From Candidatus Zixiibacteriota bacterium (GTDB lineage: Bacteria; Zixibacteria; MSB-5A5; GN15; FEB-12), in NCBI GenBank assembly GCA_024276275.1, contig JAJRXM010000079.1, forward strand, positions 1 to 58,011: a stretch of DNA of 58,011 nt. Reading direction: 5' to 3'. Each line of letters starts with the position of its first letter. The stretch's first letter is position 1. A model generated the notes under the pieces. It made no database searches. It was not told the DNA's origin and saw only the letters and a list, made by a program, of their open reading frames with translations. The translations under genes were made by a program, and so were the position numbers. Of the stretch, positions 6,681 to 42,570 are shown piece by piece.

Positions 6681-9600
6681 TTATTTCAATAGAATCATCT
6701 TTTTAGTGTCAGAGAATTCACCTGCTTCAAGTCGGTAGAGATACATTCCGGAAGCTACTTGAGAACCTGACTGGCTGTTACCGTCCCATTCAATAGAGAC
6801 CACACCTGCTTCATCGTTACCGGTAAATGAACGAACCAGGCTACCCTTGATATTGAAAACTGATAATCTCCATTCAGCTGCTTGAGGTAAAGTAAGCTGA
6901 ATAGTAGTAGACGGGTTGAACGGATTTGGATAGTTCTGACTGAGTGAGAATCCTTTTGGAATCTGACTGAGTTTTGATAGTACTTTATAAGGTCTTCCCT
7001 GATAATCAACTGCTTCGACTTCAGAAAGAGCTATCTCGCCTTCTCCGTCAAATGATATATTAACTATTGAATTCTTACCTGAGACGATTGAATTGTCGCC
7101 CAAATCAAACAGTAGAATTCTAAGTTGATTATCAACGACATCATACATCACCTGCATATCCGAAGTTGCATCTGATGAAGTCACTTCATTTATCATGATA
7201 TCGCTTTCCAAATTATATACTAACAGCATTCCGCCAATACTTGAAACCGCATTTGTAGTAACAGCAATTTCAGATGATGTCCGAACATTTTGCAGTATTA
7301 ATTCTTCAGTATAAGGAACAAGCTTTGGAATCGGATCAGCATCACCGACAATTATACGAATCATTAGCACTAAATCAGCAACAGAGAGTGTCAGACCGTC
7401 AGCATTTACATCCGAAGCAGCAATTTGACCCGGTACATTTATAGTAAAGACACCAAGTCCATATATAAAGTAGTTCGAATAAAGCACAGCATCACCAATT
7501 TCATAAGCGATATTGTTTAAGTTTATATCTCCACGAGCATCAATAGAGTCAGGATGAATTACTTTAATACCACCGTTGATAAAGTCAACACAACGTACCG
7601 GAGCCGATGATGCCCCTGCCATACACTGATCATGCGCACCCATACCAAACGGTCTGGATGTTTCAGGGAATAAAACATCATCTGATTCATCCCATAAAAG
7701 TATATTTTCTGAGTTAAAGATTCGTGATTCAAGATATAGAATTGATCCCAATGTATTTGAGAACGTATTATCACCACAGTCATACCATGCAAATTCTATC
7801 GGTAAGAATAAGTCACCCAGATTTTGGTTGTTGGCAACCAAGACATTCATAGATACCAATGCACCGTTAGGCTCAAGTGAGGATGTAGGCGGATGTGCCG
7901 GTCCATTACTAAGATCGGCCAAACCGACAATTCGAACTATTCCGGACGGACAATTGGCACCACAACCTTCAGAGCCTAGCCTAAAGGTAAAATACTCCCA
8001 GCCTTCAATAGCAGTACCGGCAATAGTAGCAGAATTAAATGTCATAACCGAGGCATCAAAGCTTATAAGAACATCAAAACCGCCTATGATAGTATTTGTT
8101 TCAATATTTAACAGAACCTCATGCTGAACACCTACAGGAACTTGGTCGCCCCCATCAATTGTAAGGCGGACACAAACATCACAGTCTGCTTTTTCAACGA
8201 TATCAACATAGAAAGTATCTGTAACAATACTACATCCATCAGAAGCCTCGAAGCAGAACATATACAGTCCGGCTGTATCAGGGACAAATGTGACAACACC
8301 GGTATCAGAGAATACTCTATTATATGTACCGACCCCACAAACCATATCCATAGAGGTTATCTGAATAGCATCTTGCGCAAAAATTCCGTCAATAGACAAT
8401 GTATTAGTATCACTTGGACACCATATGAAAGTCTGTAATGAAGGAAGATTTAATATAGGTCTGATATTTTCAGAAACTTTAAGAGTCGTATACGATGTAT
8501 CAGCACCGCAATCATTAGAAGCTATTATTTCTATTTCATATATTCCTGCCGTGTCAACATCAACACAGACAACACCGGCTGAAAATGTACCGGAAGGGTT
8601 AACTGTTACCTGAATTCCGGTTCCGCTAGTTTGTACATCAAAACAGAATGATGTAGGGTCTGCGAGACATAATAGCGTATCAATAGTTTCCGGTGAACTT
8701 ACAGTCGGTAACTGTGACATGGATGTTGTAATTTGGAAATTACATGTATCCGCTCCGCACATAGCATCTGTGATAATTGTTATATTTTGTAGCCCGGCTT
8801 GATGAACATAGAGTGAAAGAATACCACTCGCAAAGTCATAACTTGCGTTTGCAGGATTACCGTTATTTAAGATTGTAAGATTTGCATCAACAGGGGTAAT
8901 CGGTATAAGTACTCGAACCGAGTCAGGTCCACAAAGGTTAGCAAACTGATCTTGCGGACATATTATTGCAGCTGTAGCCCCTTGAATAAGATTGATATTC
9001 GCAACAGCAGTACTTGTTTCACCACAGGCATCAGTAGCTGTTAAGACAATCGAAGTTTGTCCAAATGCAATCGGTAGGACACAAACAAAGTTACCGTTTA
9101 CTACACCTATTGACGATGTAACACTCACTAGGTTTGTATCAATATCCAGTGCTTCAAAAGGTATACAGATAGAGTCAATAGCACAAACCGTAATAGTTGT
9201 ATCTTGTGCCGTTACAACCGGTGCTGTATTAAATCGAGCATCTACAGTAAAGCTGCATACATCCATACCGCAGGCACCTGAAGCAGCTAAATCAATTTTA
9301 TATGAACCTGCTGTATCTATCGGTAGTACTATTTGGTTATTACTAATATAAGCAGGTAAAGAAACTATGATATTTTCTACCGAAGTAGAAGATGAATAGT
9401 CAAAATACAATGTATCTGCTCCACAGAGTAATGTATCTAAGTTACTCGGACAAGTTATAGTAACATCAATTTTATTATTTACTTCTACAGTAAACTCACA
9501 AATGATTTCATTACAGTCAGCGGTAGCAGTAAGTGAAACTGTATAGATACCTGCAGTATCGGCATAGAAGCTCAATAGTCCGTTTTGATATGTTCCGATA

Positions 9601-12600
9601 GAAGAAACTACTGAAAGAATTTCACCTGTTATATTAAGAGGTACAGAAATCGAATCAGCACTACAAATAGAATCGGCAACAATTACAGTCGGACATTCAA
9701 ACTGAACATATCCACCTACTTCGACTGTGACAGTAGAGGTATCAACTGTTACAAGTCCACATGAATCGGTTGCTGTTACTTCTATTAAGTACATACCAGA
9801 ACTGTCAGGAGTAAAACAAATTTGATCGTTCTCTACTGTATAAACACCTAATGATGTAGATACAGAGAGTAAATTATTATCTATATCAGCAATATTAACC
9901 TGAACATAAATTTCCGAACCGCCACAACTCATAAGAGTAGTATCTATTGCTGTTGTTGTGATAACAGGAGCAGAGTTAAAGAGAACCGTTACTGTTATTT
10001 CATCATAATCAGATGCACCGCAAGTATCATTTGCCGTTACACCGACAATATAAGTACCGGCTGTATCGACTCTAAAACTGAGTAATGAAAGAATCGGATC
10101 ATAACTGCCTCCGGATACTGTAACATCACCTAAGTTATTGTCAACATCGGTAATTCCCAGTGGCAGCGATATATCAGTCGGACCACAGACAGTCATAGAA
10201 GTATCCTGTGGAAGAATAACCAACGGAGGAGTATTACAGACGATAGTTACGGTAAAGCTATAATCATAAGAGCCACAAGCTGTAGTAGCTATAACCGTTA
10301 ATTTATTGGCTGAAGAACATTCGGCAAAGTAACAAACTTCAGAAGTTTGAGGGTTATACCATGCATTAATACCCGAAACTGTAACATCGGCACCTTCCGG
10401 TATTCCATAGACAGGGAAACAAAGTGTATCAAGCTCACAGACGAAAATTGTAGTATCTGTTTGACCCGAAAGCTGAATTCCTTGGTCTGTAATAACATGA
10501 ACATTAGATGTATCTACTATTATTACACCGCAACTATCTGTTATTGTTGCTATTATTTCATAGTTACCGGAATCATACGGTACAAAACATACTTGCCCGT
10601 TTTCGTAGGTTCCTCTATTTAAACTAACCGAAGCTAGATTATCATCTTGGATATCAAGAGGTAAACAGATTGCTTCCGGTTTACAGAGATATACTGTTGT
10701 GTCGGGCATCTGAGATACAGTAGGTATCTGATTACTTGTAATTGTTACATTTATTTCATCGTATGCTCTTAGCCCGCAAGTATCAACAACTTCAACAGCA
10801 AAGAAATAATCACCGTCTGCTGTCGGAGTAAAGCAAAGCTGCGAGGTTTGAGCATTATAAACAGCATCGCCGGTTATAATTAAAGAATCATAGTTAGAGA
10901 CTGAGCTTACATCAATACAGACTTCTGACAAATAACAGACGAATAGGTCTAAGTCACTGCCTAAATCTACAAACGGACCTTCACTAATAGATACTGTAAC
11001 TAAAACGGTATCAGAACTTCTGACTCCACATGAATCAGTTGCAGAAACTTCAATTTCATAAACACCGGAAGTATCAGCGTTAAAACAATACTGCTCGGTT
11101 GTCCAGTTGAAATATCCATTTGGAATTGAAGTATACGCTCTGTTGTTATCAGTAATGGTAACATCAAAACAAACCTCACCCGGTTCACAAAGCGAGACAG
11201 CAAAGTCCTGCCCGGCATCGACAATCGGTGCTTCATTCAGTTCAACAGTTATTACTGTCGTATCAACACCTACAGCACCGCAGGAATCGGTAGCAGTCGT
11301 TATAATTGTATATACTCCTGAGCTGTCAAGATCAAGACATACTTGGTCATTTTGAGCATCATACGTACCAAAGTTTACAGATACATCTTGCAGATTAAAA
11401 TCGAGATCATCGGCGTTTACCGCAAAACAAATTGGTTCGGCATCACATAAAGCAACTAAGAAATCATCTGCAGATGTTACATAAGGAGCACGATTGTTTT
11501 CGATGACAACAGGAACAGAACAAGTGTCAGCATGACCGCACTCATCTACAACTTCTATAACTACATCAAATGAATCAGACAGGTTGCCGATGACAGAAAC
11601 TATTTTATTTTCTATCGTAGCATTACCTGAAAGGATATTAAAAGTAAAAGGTTCAAATTCAGGGTCATTAGCATCAATACTAAAATTAAATGTATCAGTT
11701 TCACAAGTGAAGAATTTCAAGTCAGTAGGACAAACTATTTGCGGAGCTCTGTTAATCACAACAGTTATATTCACCGTATCATCACAGATAGGCGGTACAA
11801 AAGCATCCGGATAATCACCACAGGAATCCGTAACACAATACACAAATGTATAAGTAGCGGAATCAACATCGGCAGGAGGAAAAATAGTCTGACCGGTAGA
11901 ATCGGTTAATTGAGTAAATTTACCTATATCAGAAAACAGAGACAAAGTAATAGGGTCACCGTCAGGGTCGGTTGCTGAAACATCAAAAGTTATATCTTCA
12001 ACATTACAAAGATAGATAGTTGAATCAAACGGATTAAATATCGGTGGATTGTTGATACCGATAACATCTGTAATTAACGCAGTAACGGCTCCGCAATCAT
12101 CAGAGACAGAAACCGTAAAGAGATATGTTCCCGATGAATCAGGATTATAAGTAATAACTCCGGTCTGAGCATCAATAACACCTGTACCGGAGAGTAATTC
12201 ATAAGTTAGATTTTGGTTATCAACATCAGAAGCCAATACTGTGATTGTTCTGACAGCTCCCGGCTCACAATAGTTTTGAGCAAAGTTCTGGTCAATTATA
12301 ACAGGTGTCTGATTAAAGTAAATTGACAAATTAAATGTCGACTCGCTTACAGCACCGCAAGAATCGGTACAACGGATAGTTACAGAAATATCTTCACTTT
12401 GTGAAGCATTATATTCCCAAAAACCGTTTACCAAGGTACCCTGGCCTGAAATAATTTCACAAGTTTCTAAGTTATTATCAGCATCAAATGATGTGTAAGG
12501 CAAGCTGATTAATTGAGGAGTATCACAGAACAAAAACGATGTATCCGCAGGAGTTTCTACTACAGGAGCAGCGTTAATATCTACAGTCACTAAAACTGTA

Positions 12601-15600
12601 TCAGTAGTTCTGACACCACACGAATCAGTAGCGGAAACCTCTATAGTATATAAACCGGAAGTATCAGTATTAAAACAGTATTGCTCGGTTGCCCAATTAA
12701 AGAACCCCTGAGGAATAGATGTATATGCTCTGTTGTCATCAGTTACAGTAACATCAAAACAAACTTCACCCGGCTCACACAAGGCAATAGAGAAATCTTC
12801 ACCGGCATCCACAAACGGAGCTTCATTGATTATAAAATCAACAGAGAATAGTTTATCGGCAAAAGCACCGCAAGAGTCTTCAACTCTTGCTGTAAATTCA
12901 ACCGTTTCTGTTCCTGCTGGTGTGTAGACCCATCCTGAATCAACAACAAAACCGACTCCAGAGACTAAACTAAAGTTTATAAAGTCACCGTCATTATCAA
13001 ACGCATCAAACGGGATAAGAACTTCTGTCGGCTCACACTGCTCAAAGCTAAAGAGAGATTCACCGCTCCACTGCGGAGCATTATTCATGTGAATAATCAG
13101 AGTAAAACTGTCCTCGGTAAACGCACCGCAATCATCTGTAGCCCGAATTGTAACAGTAACGGAATCATCGGCAACTGCATTAAAAACCCAATTACCGTCA
13201 ATAAGCTGACCTTCTCCTGAAATAATTTCAAGGATAACATTATTACTGTCAGCATCAACAGCATAGACAGGTAATGAAAGTTGGGTCGGTTCACATAAGT
13301 TAAAAGAAGATGTTTCAGGAACTACAACCTGTGGTGTTTCATTAAACACAACTGTTACGGCAATTTCATCATAATCGACGGCACCACAAGAATCAGTCGC
13401 GGAAACAGAAAGGATATACGTTCCGGCTGTATCAGGTGTAAATGTCATAAGGTTTAAGATATTATCATACGAACCGCCCAGAGCAGTTACAGAGGTAATA
13501 TTACCGTCGATATCAGTAACACCGACCGGTAAACTAATTTGTTCTATATCACAAAGGAAAATTGTAGTGTCCTGAGGAAGAATAACAAGTGGGTCAGTAT
13601 TACAAATTATAGTAACTGAAAACTGTTCTACAAAACTATTACATTCAGTATTTACTGTGAGAGTTATTTTATTGACGCTGGAACATTCAGCATAATATCC
13701 GACTCTTGAGTTGGCAGCATCATACCATGTGTTGATACCTGTAACGGAAACATCGGCACCGACAGGTATACCTGAAACAGGGAAATAAAATGTATCTAAT
13801 TCACAGACAAAGAATGTCGTATCATTCGGGACTATTATTGAAACTGCTTGGTCAGTTTTTACTTCAACATAAGCAGTATCAACGGTAACATTACCACAAC
13901 TGTCAGTTGCGGTAACAATAATATCATAATTTCCGCTGTCATACGGAACAAAACAGATAGAGCCGTCGGCATAAGTACCACGGTTTGTTGTAATAGAGAT
14001 AATATCATTATCTAAATCTGTAATTGAAACAGGAAGACAAATCGAAGTAGGTTTACAGAGATAAACTAATGTATCCTGTAAATCAGCTATAACAGGAGCA
14101 GATTTAAATTCTACATTAATAACTTTTGTGTCATAGACAGTAAATCCGCAAGAGTCAGTAAGTTCTGCTTCTAAGACATAAACACCGGCAGTATCAGGAG
14201 TAAAACAAATTTGTCCTGTCTGCGGGTCTAACTGTCCAAAATTATAGATAACGTTTGTTAAATCATTATTAGAAAACAGATCAACACAAATTTCTTCAGG
14301 AATACACATTGAAACAGATAAAGTATCGCCTAAATCCAAAATAGGTTTGTCGGTAACAGTAACTGCTATATTGATAGTATCAACAGCTACAACACCACAG
14401 TCATCAGATGCTTCGGCAATAATTTGGTAAGTACCTGAAGTATCAGGAGTAAAGCAGATTAAACCTGTTTGCTCATTATAAAAACTAAAGTTTGTAGTAA
14501 TTCTACTTAAGTTATCATCTATAATAAAAGGCTCAATACAGATTTCCTGTTCAGCACATATCTCTAAAGCATAATCAGCCCCTAAATCAATTGTCGGATT
14601 TTCATTCAGGTGAACAGTAACATTTGTTACAGAACTGTCAACTACGCCACATGAGTCGGTCGCAGTAATAACGATAGAATAAATACCCGAAGTATCAGGA
14701 GTAAAGCAAACCTGATTCAAACTTTGGTCATAAGAGCCGAAGTTAACAGAAATATCAGCTATATTTAAATTTACATCATCAACCGTTGCGTTAAAACAAA
14801 CCATCTCGGGTAGACAAAGATTCATAGCAAAATCAGTAGCAGAGTTAACAATCGGGGCTTCGTTCATTTCTATTGTAACAGGTACAACCGTTGTATCGGA
14901 AGCTCCGCATTCATCAACAACCTCAATAACAACATCAAAAGAATCAGCTGTAAAAGCAGTAACTGTTACTGTGTTATTTAAAATTGTCGCATTTTGTGAA
15001 AGGATATTATAGGTCAAAATTCCATTTTCATAATCATCGGCAAAAACATCAAAACTAAATTCAGAGGAATCACAGGCAAAGAAATTTTGCGGTCCCGGGT
15101 CGTTAGCAACCGGAGGTCGATTTATCACTACCGTAATAAGTGCGGTATCGGTACAGCACTCTCCCCCACCTGCGGCAAAACTTTGAGGGTTCAAAGAACA
15201 GCTGTCGGTACCACGGAAGATAAATCTATATACAGCGGAATCAACATCGGCAGGTGTAAAACAAGCCTGACCGGATGAGTCGGTAGTCATGGTAAAATTC
15301 CCGATACCTTCAAACATTTAAATTTGTACCGGATCACCGTCAACATCAACACCCAAAACATCAAAACAAATTTCTTCTACCTGACAAAGAGTCACTAGAG
15401 AATCATAGCAGAAAACCTGAGGAGGCGTATTAAGATGTACTGAATCAATAACAGTAGCAGTGTCAGCACCACATCCGTTTTCAACCGCAACTACAAACTC
15501 AAATATACCTGATGTATCAGGTTGATACGAAAGCAGGCCTGTTAGAGCATTTATACTACCTTGACCTGAGAGTAACGAATAGGTCAACCCGGAAGCAGAT

Positions 15601-37803: not shown

Positions 37804-37855
37804 AAGTAGCAATGACAAGACTATGACAATAATTTTTTATTAAATAGGACACAAT

Positions 37856-38788
37856 ATGAACATAAAAAACTACATAATAAGAAGGTTAAAAATAGCACCG
37901 TTATTTTTATTTCTTCTTTTACCGATGACATTATTAGCTAATCCAAGTGATACAAATTTATCAGATGAAACCTGTTTGGAGTGTCACGATGGGATGGGCG
38001 AAACACTATTAGCTACTCCCCATCAATTACAAAATAACAAATCTATTTCTTGTATATCCTGTCATAGCGGAGGTGATATACATATAGAAGATCCGTCAAC
38101 AGAGAACATTACTAACCCGCAAACATCATCTCAATCAGATGCGGTCTCATCATGTAACTCATGCCACACACCTCATGCCGAGTTAGATAACTACGGATTT
38201 GATATGCATCAATCCCAAGGTCTAAACTGTTCTTCCTGTCACCAAGTACATGGAAAGAACAAAGCACTTCTATTAGATAATCAAACTTCATTTTGTATTC
38301 CTTGCCATGAAGAGACATCGACTAAATTCGCTCGTCGTTCTAACCACCCTGTAAAGCAAGGGATTATTAACTGTCTCAGTTGCCACCAATTCACAAAAAA
38401 GCAAAATGATGATTTATCGTATGACTTAGGTCGAGTTTGTCAAAGTTGTCATCCACAACAAGGCGGACCGTTTCTCTATGAACATGAAGCAACCGACGGA
38501 TTTTCTGTAAATAGCGAAAGCTGTATTAGCTGTCATGACCCGCATGGTTCAGAAAATGACAGACTGCTAAAACAAAAAGGGAATAATCTTTGTAATCAAT
38601 GCCATGTAGAGCATTCGACAAGAAACCATGACTCACAATGGGACCTTAACTGGAGTAAACTCCCTTGCCAAAGCTGCCATACTGATACACACGGGTCATT
38701 TGTAAACCATCAACTTCTTGACCCGAATTTAGAAGCTAAATTTGGCGGCAACTGTTATAACAACGGCTGTCACAGCTCATCGAATTAG
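37856..38788 (+). CDS. Periplasmic decaheme c-type cytochrome (MtrA/DmsE size class)
   Basis: 310 residues with a signal peptide (cleavage likely LLA-NP, about residue 30) and no lipobox. Ten CXXCH haem-binding motifs occur in order: CLECH, CISCH, CNSCH, CSSCH, CIPCH, CLSCH, CQSCH, CISCH, CNQCH, CQSCH. A C-terminal CYNNGCH (CX4CH) may bind an eleventh haem. Length and haem number match MtrA/PioA/DmsE cytochromes, which sit inside an outer-membrane barrel and pass electrons through it. Two related halves of about five haems are suggested by the repeated CxxCHxxHG pattern (CHQVHGKNKALLL.. and CHDPHGSENDRLL..). The next gene begins 9 bases on with an AGGAGG site. Function as part of a conduit is inferred from context. 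Confidence 0.88.
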   Translation: MNIKNYIIRRLKIAPLFLFLLLPMTLLANPSDTNLSDETCLECHDGMGETLLATPHQLQNNKSISCISCHSGGDIHIEDPSTENITNPQTSSQSDAVSSCNSCHTPHAELDNYGFDMHQSQGLNCSSCHQVHGKNKALLLDNQTSFCIPCHEETSTKFARRSNHPVKQGIINCLSCHQFTKKQNDDLSYDLGRVCQSCHPQQGGPFLYEHEATDGFSVNSESCISCHDPHGSENDRLLKQKGNNLCNQCHVEHSTRNHDSQWDLNWSKLPCQSCHTDTHGSFVNHQLLDPNLEAKFGGNCYNNGCHSSSN

Positions 38789-38797
38789 GAGGATAGA

Positions 38798-40378
38798 ATG
38801 AAAATAATAATATATAAGACACTCCCTCTGCTCCTCTTGCTGGCTGTTGCAATACAGTCTAATGCTGGGGAAGGAAATGCTGATATAAAAATTGGGTATA
38901 TTTCAACTGATGAAGTCGGTAATAGTTCTCTGAATCAGGAAAGTTACAATATTTATGAAGGCTTTTCTCTTTCAATTACCGATTTATCTTATATCACAAA
39001 CAATGGCATTCAATTTAATGCTGACTTGTTAAACACAACATTAGATAATCGTAACCTTCGTTTTACAAGTAGTAAGTCGGGAGTTTTTTCTCTCTCTGCA
39101 TATAATAACCAATATCGCAGAAACTACAATTACGAAAAAACATACAATACAAAACGTGATGCCTATGGGTTTCAAAGTTCTATCATAGCCTCAAAGAACA
39201 TACGTTTCTTTGGAGGGTATTCATTAACAGACAAAATAGGTACAACACTAAACAATATAGACATACTAAATGACACTTCCCTGTCTGTTACTGATTACCG
39301 CAATACAACTTATAAATTCGGTATGCAGGGGTTCAGTTCGAAAGGCAATATCAGAGCTGAATACAGGAAATCTAATTTTGATGATAAGACCGTAAATCCG
39401 TTAGACAGAGAATCAGAACAAGTAACTATTTCAGCATTTACCCAAGCACCCCAAAACAAAAACATACAGCTTTCAGGTGGCTATATATATAGAACCGACA
39501 CCGAGTTAAAAAATAACACGCTCTTAAAAACGAACCAACTTTGGGGCGGTGCCAAGTATTATTTCTTAAACAACAATACAATCGAATATCGATTTAGGTT
39601 TGCACGTACTGACCATAGCTCACAAACGTATGAAACAGATAATTGGGTTAATTCTATTACATACGGCAAGACATGGAAACAAAAAGGCGGTATCCGTATC
39701 AGCTTAGAAAACAGAATTATAGATGACTTAACCGACAGAGCAGAAACAAACAATTTAATCGTAGACGGTTGGTACAAAGCAGGTACAAAATTACTATTCC
39801 GAGGTAAAGCCTCTACTAACAGTAAAGATATTCCTACCGGTTCGACTTTACTGGGTAGACAGACTGTTACGCGTCATCTTTTTTCTGCTAGATATACTGA
39901 CAGAAAATATGGAAATTTAACTCTTAGAATAGATAAAAGAGTTCGTCGAAACAATGACATTGCGGTTAATACACAATTTGACTATACCTCTTCTTCTGCT
40001 ATTCTCAATCTAAAAGATGAAAACTACGGAAGACTTAATGTTACATATAGTTATTATCTCGGTGAATATGAAAACAGAAACAGACCGACAAACGAAAGTA
40101 AAAGCTACGAATTTTCCGACCATGTTATCTCAGGAACTATCACACCAAACTCGTACGGTAATTTTGATTTAAGTTTCGGAGGAACATACTATCGAAGCCG
40201 TCGTGATCAGAATAAAGAAAAATTCTCATTAAACATCATAACGAAATATCACTTCCCTTATGATCATATTCTTGAGTTCAAGTATGATGTTTTCAACTAT
40301 GATGATTATAATTTAAACAGAAATTATTACACTGCTAATATTTTTGAAATTAACTTTATAAAAGCAATAAAACTTTAG
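38798..40378 (+). CDS. Outer-membrane beta-barrel protein, porin partner of the cytochromes
   Basis: 526 residues with a signal peptide (ending SNA-GE) and no lipobox. The mature protein is almost entirely alternating polar/hydrophobic strands with Tyr/Phe girdles (for example GVFSLSAYNNQYRRNYNYEK, RFFGGYSLTDKIG, TIEYRFRFARTD, LRIDKRVRRNND, HILEFKYDVFNYDDYN). It has short turns and a final strand ANIFEINFIKAIKL, typical of an outer-membrane barrel. Its place between a decaheme cytochrome and a multiheme lipoprotein matches the MtrB/PioB-type sheath of porin-cytochrome conduits. It is shorter than MtrB (~670-700) and I see no CXXC at the N-terminus, so it is at best a distant relative. Confidence 0.75.
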   Translation: MKIIIYKTLPLLLLLAVAIQSNAGEGNADIKIGYISTDEVGNSSLNQESYNIYEGFSLSITDLSYITNNGIQFNADLLNTTLDNRNLRFTSSKSGVFSLSAYNNQYRRNYNYEKTYNTKRDAYGFQSSIIASKNIRFFGGYSLTDKIGTTLNNIDILNDTSLSVTDYRNTTYKFGMQGFSSKGNIRAEYRKSNFDDKTVNPLDRESEQVTISAFTQAPQNKNIQLSGGYIYRTDTELKNNTLLKTNQLWGGAKYYFLNNNTIEYRFRFARTDHSSQTYETDNWVNSITYGKTWKQKGGIRISLENRIIDDLTDRAETNNLIVDGWYKAGTKLLFRGKASTNSKDIPTGSTLLGRQTVTRHLFSARYTDRKYGNLTLRIDKRVRRNNDIAVNTQFDYTSSSAILNLKDENYGRLNVTYSYYLGEYENRNRPTNESKSYEFSDHVISGTITPNSYGNFDLSFGGTYYRSRRDQNKEKFSLNIITKYHFPYDHILEFKYDVFNYDDYNLNRNYYTANIFEINFIKAIKL

Positions 40379-40389
40379 AGGAGTATAAG

Positions 40390-42570
40390 ATGCGAAGTAT
40401 TAAACTTTTTATCGTATTTGCTTTTGTTGCCTTACTCTTAATTACAGGTTGTGAAAGGAAAGTCACAACAGGAGATGACGGAAACAGTGGCAATAATATA
40501 GCAGGAAATGCTGCGTACATCGGCACCGATGCCTGTCAAGCATGTCATGCAGATATCCATGCATCATTTGTGAAAACGGGTCATCCGTTTAAGGTAAATG
40601 AAGCAGCAGATGCTTTCACACCGGGATATTATCCGTTTACAACTTTACCGGCTACTTCCCCGGAAATTGATTTATCTCAGGCCGCCATGGTTATCGGTGG
40701 GTTTAGATGGAAAGCTCGGTTTATTGACAGCTCTGGTTACATCATGACCGGCGACCAAGTGCAATACAACTTTGGGAATCAATCTTGGACTGCCTATCAT
40801 TCCGGTGAAACAAAACCGTATGCATGCGGTCCTTGCCATATGACAAACTACAAAGCTGAAGGTAATCAGAAAGATTGGCCGGGCTTAGTCGGCACGTGGG
40901 AATTTAACGGTATCCAATGTGAAGAATGTCACGGTCCGGGTGAATTACATGCTGGAGACCCGTATGAAATCGGTATGGAAGTCAACCTTGCCAACGGTAA
41001 AGACGGCTGCGGAAAGTGCCACATTCGCGGAGATGAAAATAAAATTCCTGCCAAAGGCGGATTTGTAAAACATCATGAACAATGGAATGAAATGTTCGGG
41101 TCAAAACATGCATCTATTAAATGTGTTGATTGTCATAACGTACATGAATCACTTCATCCGCTAAATCCTAATAAAGAAAACGCTATTAAACAGGGTTGTG
41201 AAAGCTGTCACTTAAAAGAAACTGCATCTTTTGAAGCAAGCAGCATCAAACATGCCGGCTCATCGGTAGGACCGTCTTGCATAGACTGTCACATGCCTAA
41301 AGCAGCAAAATCAGCTATCGCAAACGGTACTTATGAAGGCGATGTTCGTTCACATATGTTTGCTATTAATACAGCAGTGGACGCTGAAATGTTTACACCG
41401 GACGGTCTCTTTGCAAACGGTAATTTGACTCTTGAATATACCTGTTTAACTTGCCATGACTCCAAAGATAAAGCTTGGGCAGCTAATTATGCCAATGCTG
41501 TTCATGCAGGTTCCCCGTCAGAAGTTACTCAATATGTAGGAAGCGAAGCATGTGCCGCATGTCATCAAACAACCTATGACAGCTTTATGCTAACCGGACA
41601 TCCGTTTAAAATCAACGAAGCAAAAGATGCCTTTACTCCTGGATACTATCCGTTTACTACGCTACCGACAAGCTCACCGGAGATTGATTTATCTCAAGCC
41701 GCAATGGTAATAGGCGGATTTAGATGGAAAGCTCGTTTTATTGATAGCTCCGGATTTATCATGACCGGTAATCAGGTGCAGTATAACTTTGGCAATGATA
41801 CTTGGACAGCATATCACGCCGGTGAAACAAAACCGTATGCATGCGGTCCTTGTCACATGACAGGTTATAAAGATGTCGGGAACCAAAAGGGATTACCGGG
41901 TTTAATCGGAACCTGGGAATTTAATGGGGTTCAATGTGAAGAATGCCACGGTCCGGGACAAAATCATATCAATGATGCTTATAATGTCGACATGACTGTT
42001 GATTACACTTCAGAAGCTTGCGGTAAATGTCATATTCGTGGTGATGTAAACAAAATCCCTGCTAAAGGCGGATTTATCAAACATCATGAACAATGGAATG
42101 AAATGTTCTCATCCAAACATCAGGCTTTACAATGTGTTGATTGTCATGACCCACACGTAGGTCTGCACCCGGACAACCCGGCACGTGCAACTGCAATCAA
42201 AATTAATTGTGAAAACTGTCACTTTAATGAAGCCGCTACTTTTGCCAATACACCTATAACAGAGCATGTATCAAACGGTCTCACTTGTATTGACTGTCAT
42301 ATGCCGAGAGCGGCAAAATCAGCAATTGCTGTAGGTACCTATGAAGGAGATATTCGTTCTCATCTCTTTGGTATCAATGTTGACTCTACGGCCGAAATGT
42401 TTACTACTGACGGTGCCTTTGCGAACGGTTATTTAACATTAGAATATACTTGTTTGCAGTGTCATACCGACCCTACGGACACCAAAGGTTGGGCAGGACA
42501 GAATGTGAAAAATTCTCACGGTCCTATGCCGGTAAAAAAAGACAATAATACTTTTATAAGTGACAACTAG
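40390..42570 (+). CDS. 16-haem c-type cytochrome lipoprotein (duplicated octahaem)
   Basis: 726 residues, GAGGAG ribosome site. The signal peptide ends in lipobox LLITGC (Cys21), so the protein is lipid-anchored, probably to the outer membrane. Sixteen CXXCH motifs form two sets of eight in the same order: C(Q/A)ACH, CGPCH, CEECH, CGKCH, CVDCH, CE(S/N)CH, CIDCH, CL(T/Q)CH. The halves (residues ~41-380 and ~381-720) share long near-identical stretches (AAMVIGGFRWKARFIDSSG, GETKPYACGPCHMT), so they arose by tandem duplication of an octahaem gene. The C(E)ECHGPG motif recalls the cytochrome c554-like multihaem families. As the terminal gene after a barrel, the likely role is cell-surface electron exchange, by analogy to MtrC/OmcA, which it does not resemble in sequence. 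Confidence 0.88.
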   Translation: MRSIKLFIVFAFVALLLITGCERKVTTGDDGNSGNNIAGNAAYIGTDACQACHADIHASFVKTGHPFKVNEAADAFTPGYYPFTTLPATSPEIDLSQAAMVIGGFRWKARFIDSSGYIMTGDQVQYNFGNQSWTAYHSGETKPYACGPCHMTNYKAEGNQKDWPGLVGTWEFNGIQCEECHGPGELHAGDPYEIGMEVNLANGKDGCGKCHIRGDENKIPAKGGFVKHHEQWNEMFGSKHASIKCVDCHNVHESLHPLNPNKENAIKQGCESCHLKETASFEASSIKHAGSSVGPSCIDCHMPKAAKSAIANGTYEGDVRSHMFAINTAVDAEMFTPDGLFANGNLTLEYTCLTCHDSKDKAWAANYANAVHAGSPSEVTQYVGSEACAACHQTTYDSFMLTGHPFKINEAKDAFTPGYYPFTTLPTSSPEIDLSQAAMVIGGFRWKARFIDSSGFIMTGNQVQYNFGNDTWTAYHAGETKPYACGPCHMTGYKDVGNQKGLPGLIGTWEFNGVQCEECHGPGQNHINDAYNVDMTVDYTSEACGKCHIRGDVNKIPAKGGFIKHHEQWNEMFSSKHQALQCVDCHDPHVGLHPDNPARATAIKINCENCHFNEAATFANTPITEHVSNGLTCIDCHMPRAAKSAIAVGTYEGDIRSHLFGINVDSTAEMFTTDGAFANGYLTLEYTCLQCHTDPTDTKGWAGQNVKNSHGPMPVKKDNNTFISDN
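40525..42560 (+). repeat. Tandem duplication inside the 16-haem cytochrome gene
   Basis: The two halves lie about 1017 bases (339 codons) apart, measured from the first haem Cys of each (near 40533 and 41550). Synonymous differences between otherwise identical peptide stretches show that the copies have diverged under purifying selection. Confidence 0.85.

Follow-up and report, generated by a model that had tools for sequence, protein, structure and literature searches.

Most analyses of Mtr-type haem wires concern Proteobacteria, and a systematic survey of mtrCAB found it in three phyla only (PMC8805035). In Zixibacteria, mtrAB genes or porin-cytochromes have already been reported at the level of annotation (PMC9769843; PMC10809760; PMC7005843). 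The natural reference is MtrCAB of Shewanella and the Vibrionaceae, known from the solved complex 6R2Q and represented in our comparisons by the mtrC-mtrA-mtrB operon of Photobacterium sp. DA100 (L135), from which the MtrA and MtrB comparators were taken. MtrB is a barrel of 26 strands, capped by a helix that lies between strands 1 and 2, and the C-terminus of MtrA points outside (PMC7198977). The Geobacter Pcc system (OmbB-OmaB-OmcB) likewise has a porin, a periplasmic cytochrome and an outer multihaem lipoprotein, and atypical motifs are known in its outer cytochromes. MtoAB and PioAB have an MtrAB-type core, usually without an outer lipoprotein cytochrome.

The operon described here lies in a stretch of 58,011 nucleotides (the window) from a 3.39 Mb draft genome of a Candidatus Zixiibacteriota bacterium, and we consider it very likely to encode an Mtr-type porin-cytochrome conduit. 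Like MtrCAB, it combines in a single operon an MtrA-family wire that shares all ten haem sites (A), a predicted 26-strand barrel of the MtrB fold (B) and a lipid-anchored outer cytochrome (C). It differs from MtrCAB in its gene order (A-B-C here, C-A-B there), in an eleventh site on A that lies past the end of MtrA, in a cysteine-free barrel that falls below the Pfam model and has 526 residues against 656 in the Photobacterium MtrB, and in an outer cytochrome that is unrelated to MtrC as a whole. The periplasmic subunit sets it apart from the Geobacter system, being octahaem there and having eleven sites here, and the C-terminal addition to A, as well as the presence of C, sets it apart from MtoAB and PioAB. 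The original prediction had likened the order of the three genes to that of MtrAB-C and PioAB-type conduits, a reading now supported by the MtrA and MtrB matches of A and B and by the retention of that order in relatives.

The three open reading frames are co-directional and as tightly spaced as had been claimed, with gaps of 9 bases between A and B and 11 between B and C (Table 1). Strong ribosome sites had been claimed for all three genes; B (AGGAGG) and C (GAGGAG) have them, while that of A (AGGA) is weaker. The operon stands behind nadE-rsmI-PAP2-lgt, an arrangement found in seven relatives as well. In composition-preserving shuffles, CXXCH turned up on average 0.12 times in A (maximum 4) and 0.08 times in C (maximum 2), so far below the observed counts that the motifs of neither protein can be put down to chance. 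The ten, possibly eleven, haems foreseen for A correspond to ten CXXCH motifs and a CX4CH at residue 300, and since this last site recurs in all 50 relatives and is thus real as a conserved site, the haem motifs of the operon total 27. In C, the 16 CXXCH motifs and a lipobox cysteine at residue 21 agree with the 16-haem lipoprotein expected.

Table 1. Features of the operon, in positions of the window
Feature	Position	Strand	Description	Basis
Gene A	37856..38788	+	310 aa; MtrA-like cytochrome, periplasmic/trans-outer-membrane; 10 CXXCH + 1 CX4CH	
Gene B	38798..40378	+	526 aa; predicted 26-stranded outer-membrane barrel, distant MtrB relative; zero cysteines	
Gene C	40390..42570	+	726 aa; putative outer-surface lipoprotein cytochrome; 16 CXXCH, two octahaem modules	
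Ribosome site of A	37846..37849	+	AGGA, weak	sequence
Ribosome site of B	38787..38792	+	AGGAGG, strong; overlaps A stop codon	sequence
Ribosome site of C	40378..40383	+	GAGGAG, strong	sequence
Eleventh haem site codons of A	38753..38773	+	CYNNGCH (residues 300-306), past end of MtrA	motif, conservation, MtrA alignment
Signal peptide and mature start of C	40390..40461	+	lipobox ITGC (Cys21), conserved mature start CERK (40450-40461)	sequence; conservation
Octahaem module 1 of C	40510..41514	+		module alignment, tree
Octahaem module 2 of C	41515..42537	+	68% identical to module 1	module alignment, tree

The wire, the barrel and their conservation

Among curated families, A scores best with NF041028, the GSU2203-family decahaem cytochromes, though its 161.3 bits fall under the cut-off of 325; with TIGR03508 (MtrA/DmsE decahaem) it reaches 145.4 bits, under the curated cut-off of 192.2. 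Both models also match all 48 A homologues. A aligns with the solved MtrA chain 6r2q_A (E 1.1e-22) with most of the ten motifs in register, and all ten haem motifs of the Photobacterium MtrA align with it. Elsewhere in the same genome, a DmsE-family cytochrome of 429 residues (L102:6952-8241, G000:C49), with 13 CXXCH and two atypical motifs, scores above the TIGR03508 cut-off; the genes that follow it are TPR/CcmH-like, with no barrel among them.

Gene B of the window matched no Pfam or NCBIfam model, PF11854 (MtrB/PioB, gathering cut-off 23 bits) included, and searching the PDB by sequence with the B profile gave no useful match. PF11854 matches 7 of 45 B homologues (best E 3.2e-6), and one distant homologue, L126, passes its cut-off with 24.8 bits; these figures uphold the earlier suggestion of a distinct lineage of conduit. 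Because A and B are in one frame, the stretch from A through its stop codon to B could be folded with relatives as a single chain. In the AF2 model of this fused chain, the barrel is predicted with 26 strands, most of it at pLDDT above 90; a short helix follows strand 1, and strands 2-4 are short, which resembles the published MtrB (PMC7198977). The A part is only partly modelled, at low confidence (pLDDT about 35-60 beyond residue 160). Foldseek ranks MtrB (6r2q_B) first for the B model with E 4.6e-17, some eight orders of magnitude ahead of TonB-dependent receptors at 2.4e-9. When the B profile was aligned by hhalign with the Photobacterium MtrB, P was 1.8e-5, and an unrelated control protein scored 0.21. 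The outer-membrane beta-barrel of the original prediction is thus recovered as a predicted barrel of 26 strands whose nearest solved fold is MtrB. An ordinary porin as the match for B was rejected on the Foldseek ranking. The N-terminal CXXC motif, CSDC in the Photobacterium MtrB, is absent from B, which has no cysteine.

A and B are adjacent in all 50 relatives and followed by C in 48 of them, and the A-B-C order is also found in Krumholzibacteria, Latescibacterota and Eisenbacteria. Two findings had been named beforehand as speaking against a conduit, an unrelated porin as the best structural match of the barrel and a gene order lost among relatives; the match is MtrB, and the order is kept, in other phyla too. 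A coherent A-B-C lineage spans Zixibacteria, Latescibacterota, Krumholzibacteria and Eisenbacteria, groups that are known mostly through metagenomes and of which some abound in ferruginous sediments. That the three genes merely happen to adjoin, B as an ordinary porin beside periplasmic and surface cytochromes, is hardly credible: Pfam alone does not recognise B, but order and spacing are conserved in several phyla, and the barrel fits MtrB far better than any transporter porin. Counting against the conduit reading are the scores of A under the TIGR03508 and NF041028 cut-offs, the lack of a PF11854 match and of a CXXC motif in the window's B, and the low confidence of the A half of the fused model. 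On the conduit reading, which we prefer, A would serve as an MtrA-type haem wire inside the insulating 26-strand barrel B, along which electrons would cross the outer membrane.

The closest named records of the barrel come from the Zixibacteria MAGs Dive100_bin4.60 (69% identity) and bin10.64 (68%); the Dive96 and Dive100 samples are hydrothermal material from the Southwest Indian Ridge (PMC9769843). A relative from the window's own genus (L049) has the same neighbouring genes, with lgt 78% identical, and there A is only 55% and B 36-37% identical, and the outer cytochrome has 5-6 haems where that of the window has 16. The conduit of this relative has either diverged very fast or been replaced in place.

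An eleventh site at the end of the wire

The Photobacterium MtrA ends about 12 residues past its tenth motif, whereas A extends some 25 residues there, with a conserved LDPxL segment and then the eleventh site. Both cysteines and the histidine of this site are present in all 51 sequences (the window and 50 relatives), in three spacings: CX4CH in 32, CXXCH in 5 and CXCH in 14. The CXCH form stands at the C-terminus of A as CYCH, CFCH or CWCH (genomes L039, L045, L054, L056, L059, L062, L069, L071-L075, L077 and L078), and the relatives in Latescibacterota, Krumholzibacteria and Eisenbacteria always have CX4CH. On a tree built from A and B sequences with the site's own columns left out, the spacing changes state about five times, including to canonical CXXCH. 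Well-supported branches require that CXCH arose two or more times, and a deep clade of nine genomes has this form. Every full-length A has at least 11 non-motif histidines, for 11 sites, and the stretch from motif 9 to motif 10 contains two histidines, against one in the Photobacterium MtrA.

Retention of the three residues through changes of spacing, the canonical one among them, is what would be expected of a working haem site, and it suggests that haem is loaded at site 11, perhaps in the CXCH form as well. Shi et al. (2014, PMC4245776) state that haem binding has been confirmed for CX3-4CH, and that by then the periplasmic cytochromes of Pcc systems and the Mtr cytochromes had yielded no atypical motif. 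For CXCH we found no publication as a haem motif in the open-access literature, where absence is no proof. This want of a precedent, together with the fact that a sequence cannot reveal haem loading, would suit a different reading, in which site 11 is a relic or a structural disulfide and A a decahaem protein. We think that unlikely, given that two cysteines and a histidine persist in every sequence despite the shifts in spacing, and that the extra histidine between motifs 9 and 10 goes along with site 11. The stronger claim is that haem is covalently bound at site 11 whatever its spacing. CXCH would then be a natural c-type haem motif with one residue separating its cysteines, which arose on two or more occasions at the outer mouth of an Mtr-type conduit; to this claim we give about as much credence as doubt. 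If CXCH does carry haem, the recognition rules for c-type cytochromes and the substrate range of the maturation machinery will need widening, and programs that count CXXCH or CX2-4CH would overlook it.

Because the C-terminus of MtrA faces outside, site 11 should by analogy sit at the outer mouth of the conduit, adjoining C. The wire of this lineage would then be one haem longer at its surface end, and electrons would pass from the eleventh haem to C.

A modular outer cytochrome

C had been described as not MtrC-like, and it scores 29.6 bits with TIGR03507 (MtrC/OmcA), far under the cut-off of 209.3; hhalign against MtrC covers 64 columns only. The haem-domain model PF22113 matches C above its cut-off, with 63 bits. 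The AF2 model of C is poor (mean pLDDT 45).

Relatives of C that could be aligned consist of the octahaem module alone, of this module plus a different one with about six haems, or of two octahaem copies, and most other relatives have only an outer protein of about 350 residues with 5-6 CXXCH, whose likeness to the six-haem module was judged by eye. Mature outer cytochromes open with C[E/D/T]R(K/E/T) in 48 of 48 relatives, whichever haem module comes next, and a lipobox-like cysteine precedes [E/D/T]R in every one. Judged from sequence, the outer cytochrome is modular: a lipid-anchor sequence that stays constant is followed by 8, 6, 8+6 or 8+8 haems. The 16-haem C of the window is, on the same footing, a tandem duplication. 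The constant start suggests a fixed anchor, or possibly an export or docking signal at the surface.

In the module tree, both modules fall within their own lineage in each of the three 16-haem proteins, and the doubling to 16 haems therefore probably occurred three times. Common descent of all three from one 16-haem protein was rejected on this grouping, which gene conversion could mimic. By plain identity, module 2 of the window matches its L046 counterpart slightly better (71%) than it matches module 1 of the same protein (68%). In the open-access literature we found neither the eleventh site nor its spacings described, and no account of an exchange of outer modules; new here are the eleventh site, universal in the sequences compared, its three spacings, the proposal that the 16 haems go back to a duplication, and the apparent swapping of modules in the outer cytochrome. 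Because the anchor appears to stay the same while the modules of the surface cytochrome are exchanged, natural swaps would offer a way to compare how the wire meets its terminal reductase.

Held by its lipid anchor at the surface, C would exchange electrons with Fe(III) or Mn(IV) minerals, electrodes or partner cells. Among described proteins, OcwA of Thermincola (6I5B), a cell-surface terminal reductase, has a local match in C (E 3.2e-16), and the octahaem modules of C have Cytochrome_C554 matches; OcwA is, however, a nonahaem protein of a Gram-positive host, and only about 80 residues of C align best. Since OcwA reduces nitrite and hydroxylamine (PMC6703420), the conduit might instead serve a surface enzyme, with C an extracellular reductase of such soluble substrates, as its relatives in the OcwA/c554 group can be. 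This seems improbable: the similarity is a short stretch, OcwA itself has been proposed as a reductase for electrodes and minerals, and with at least 10 non-motif histidines in each eight-haem module the sequence does not require an open catalytic haem. An exchange of electrons with minerals, electrodes or cells remains our preferred role for C.

Genome setting and direction of electron flow

Several gene regions of the same genome encode multihaem cytochromes. One open reading frame (L098:5010-6527, G000:C18) encodes a NapC/NirT-type cytochrome with six CXXCH and a CGETCH, resembling ImcH, a seven-haem NapC/NirT protein, and ImcH-like 6+1-haem genes lie on the same retrieved stretch as the conduit in 10 relatives. 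Such an inner-membrane cytochrome would probably supply the conduit from the quinol pool. The ImcH-like gene of this genome is followed by genes for 7-, 8-, 13- and 11-haem cytochromes, the 11-haem one fused to a formate-dehydrogenase-gamma-like cytochrome b.

The ImcH-like genes, in this genome and beside the conduit in relatives, make outward electron flow to minerals the likelier use. The genome also has three COX1 homologues, with which oxygen respiration, or electron uptake rather than export, would be possible. Run inward, the same conduit would draw on Fe(II), minerals or partner cells for electrons, in the manner of MtoAB and PioAB, and pass them to oxygen or nitrate respiration. Besides the COX1 homologues, it speaks for this direction that MtoAB and PioAB, which are oxidation systems, are homologues of MtrAB, and that related hydrothermal Zixibacteria MAGs have been reported with mtrAB plus rTCA (PMC9769843). 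However, Mtr-type clusters for Fe(II) oxidation often have no outer cytochrome gene (PMC4245776), which here is present in nearly all relatives, and the ImcH-like protein beside the conduit in relatives would be a quinol oxidase. We therefore regard inward flow as a possible but rather unlikely use, and outward flow to minerals as the better candidate.

A further cluster in the genome (L099; G000:C97:6000-24000), reminiscent of Uet-type clusters and possibly a second conduit, encodes cytochromes with 9, 9, 10, 4, 4 and 7 haems, NHL/beta-propeller proteins and a protein of 787 residues assigned to no family. Within the window itself, positions 6681-15317 encode a protein of 2878 residues that has Ig/PKD domains and, at its C-terminus, a type IX secretion signal.
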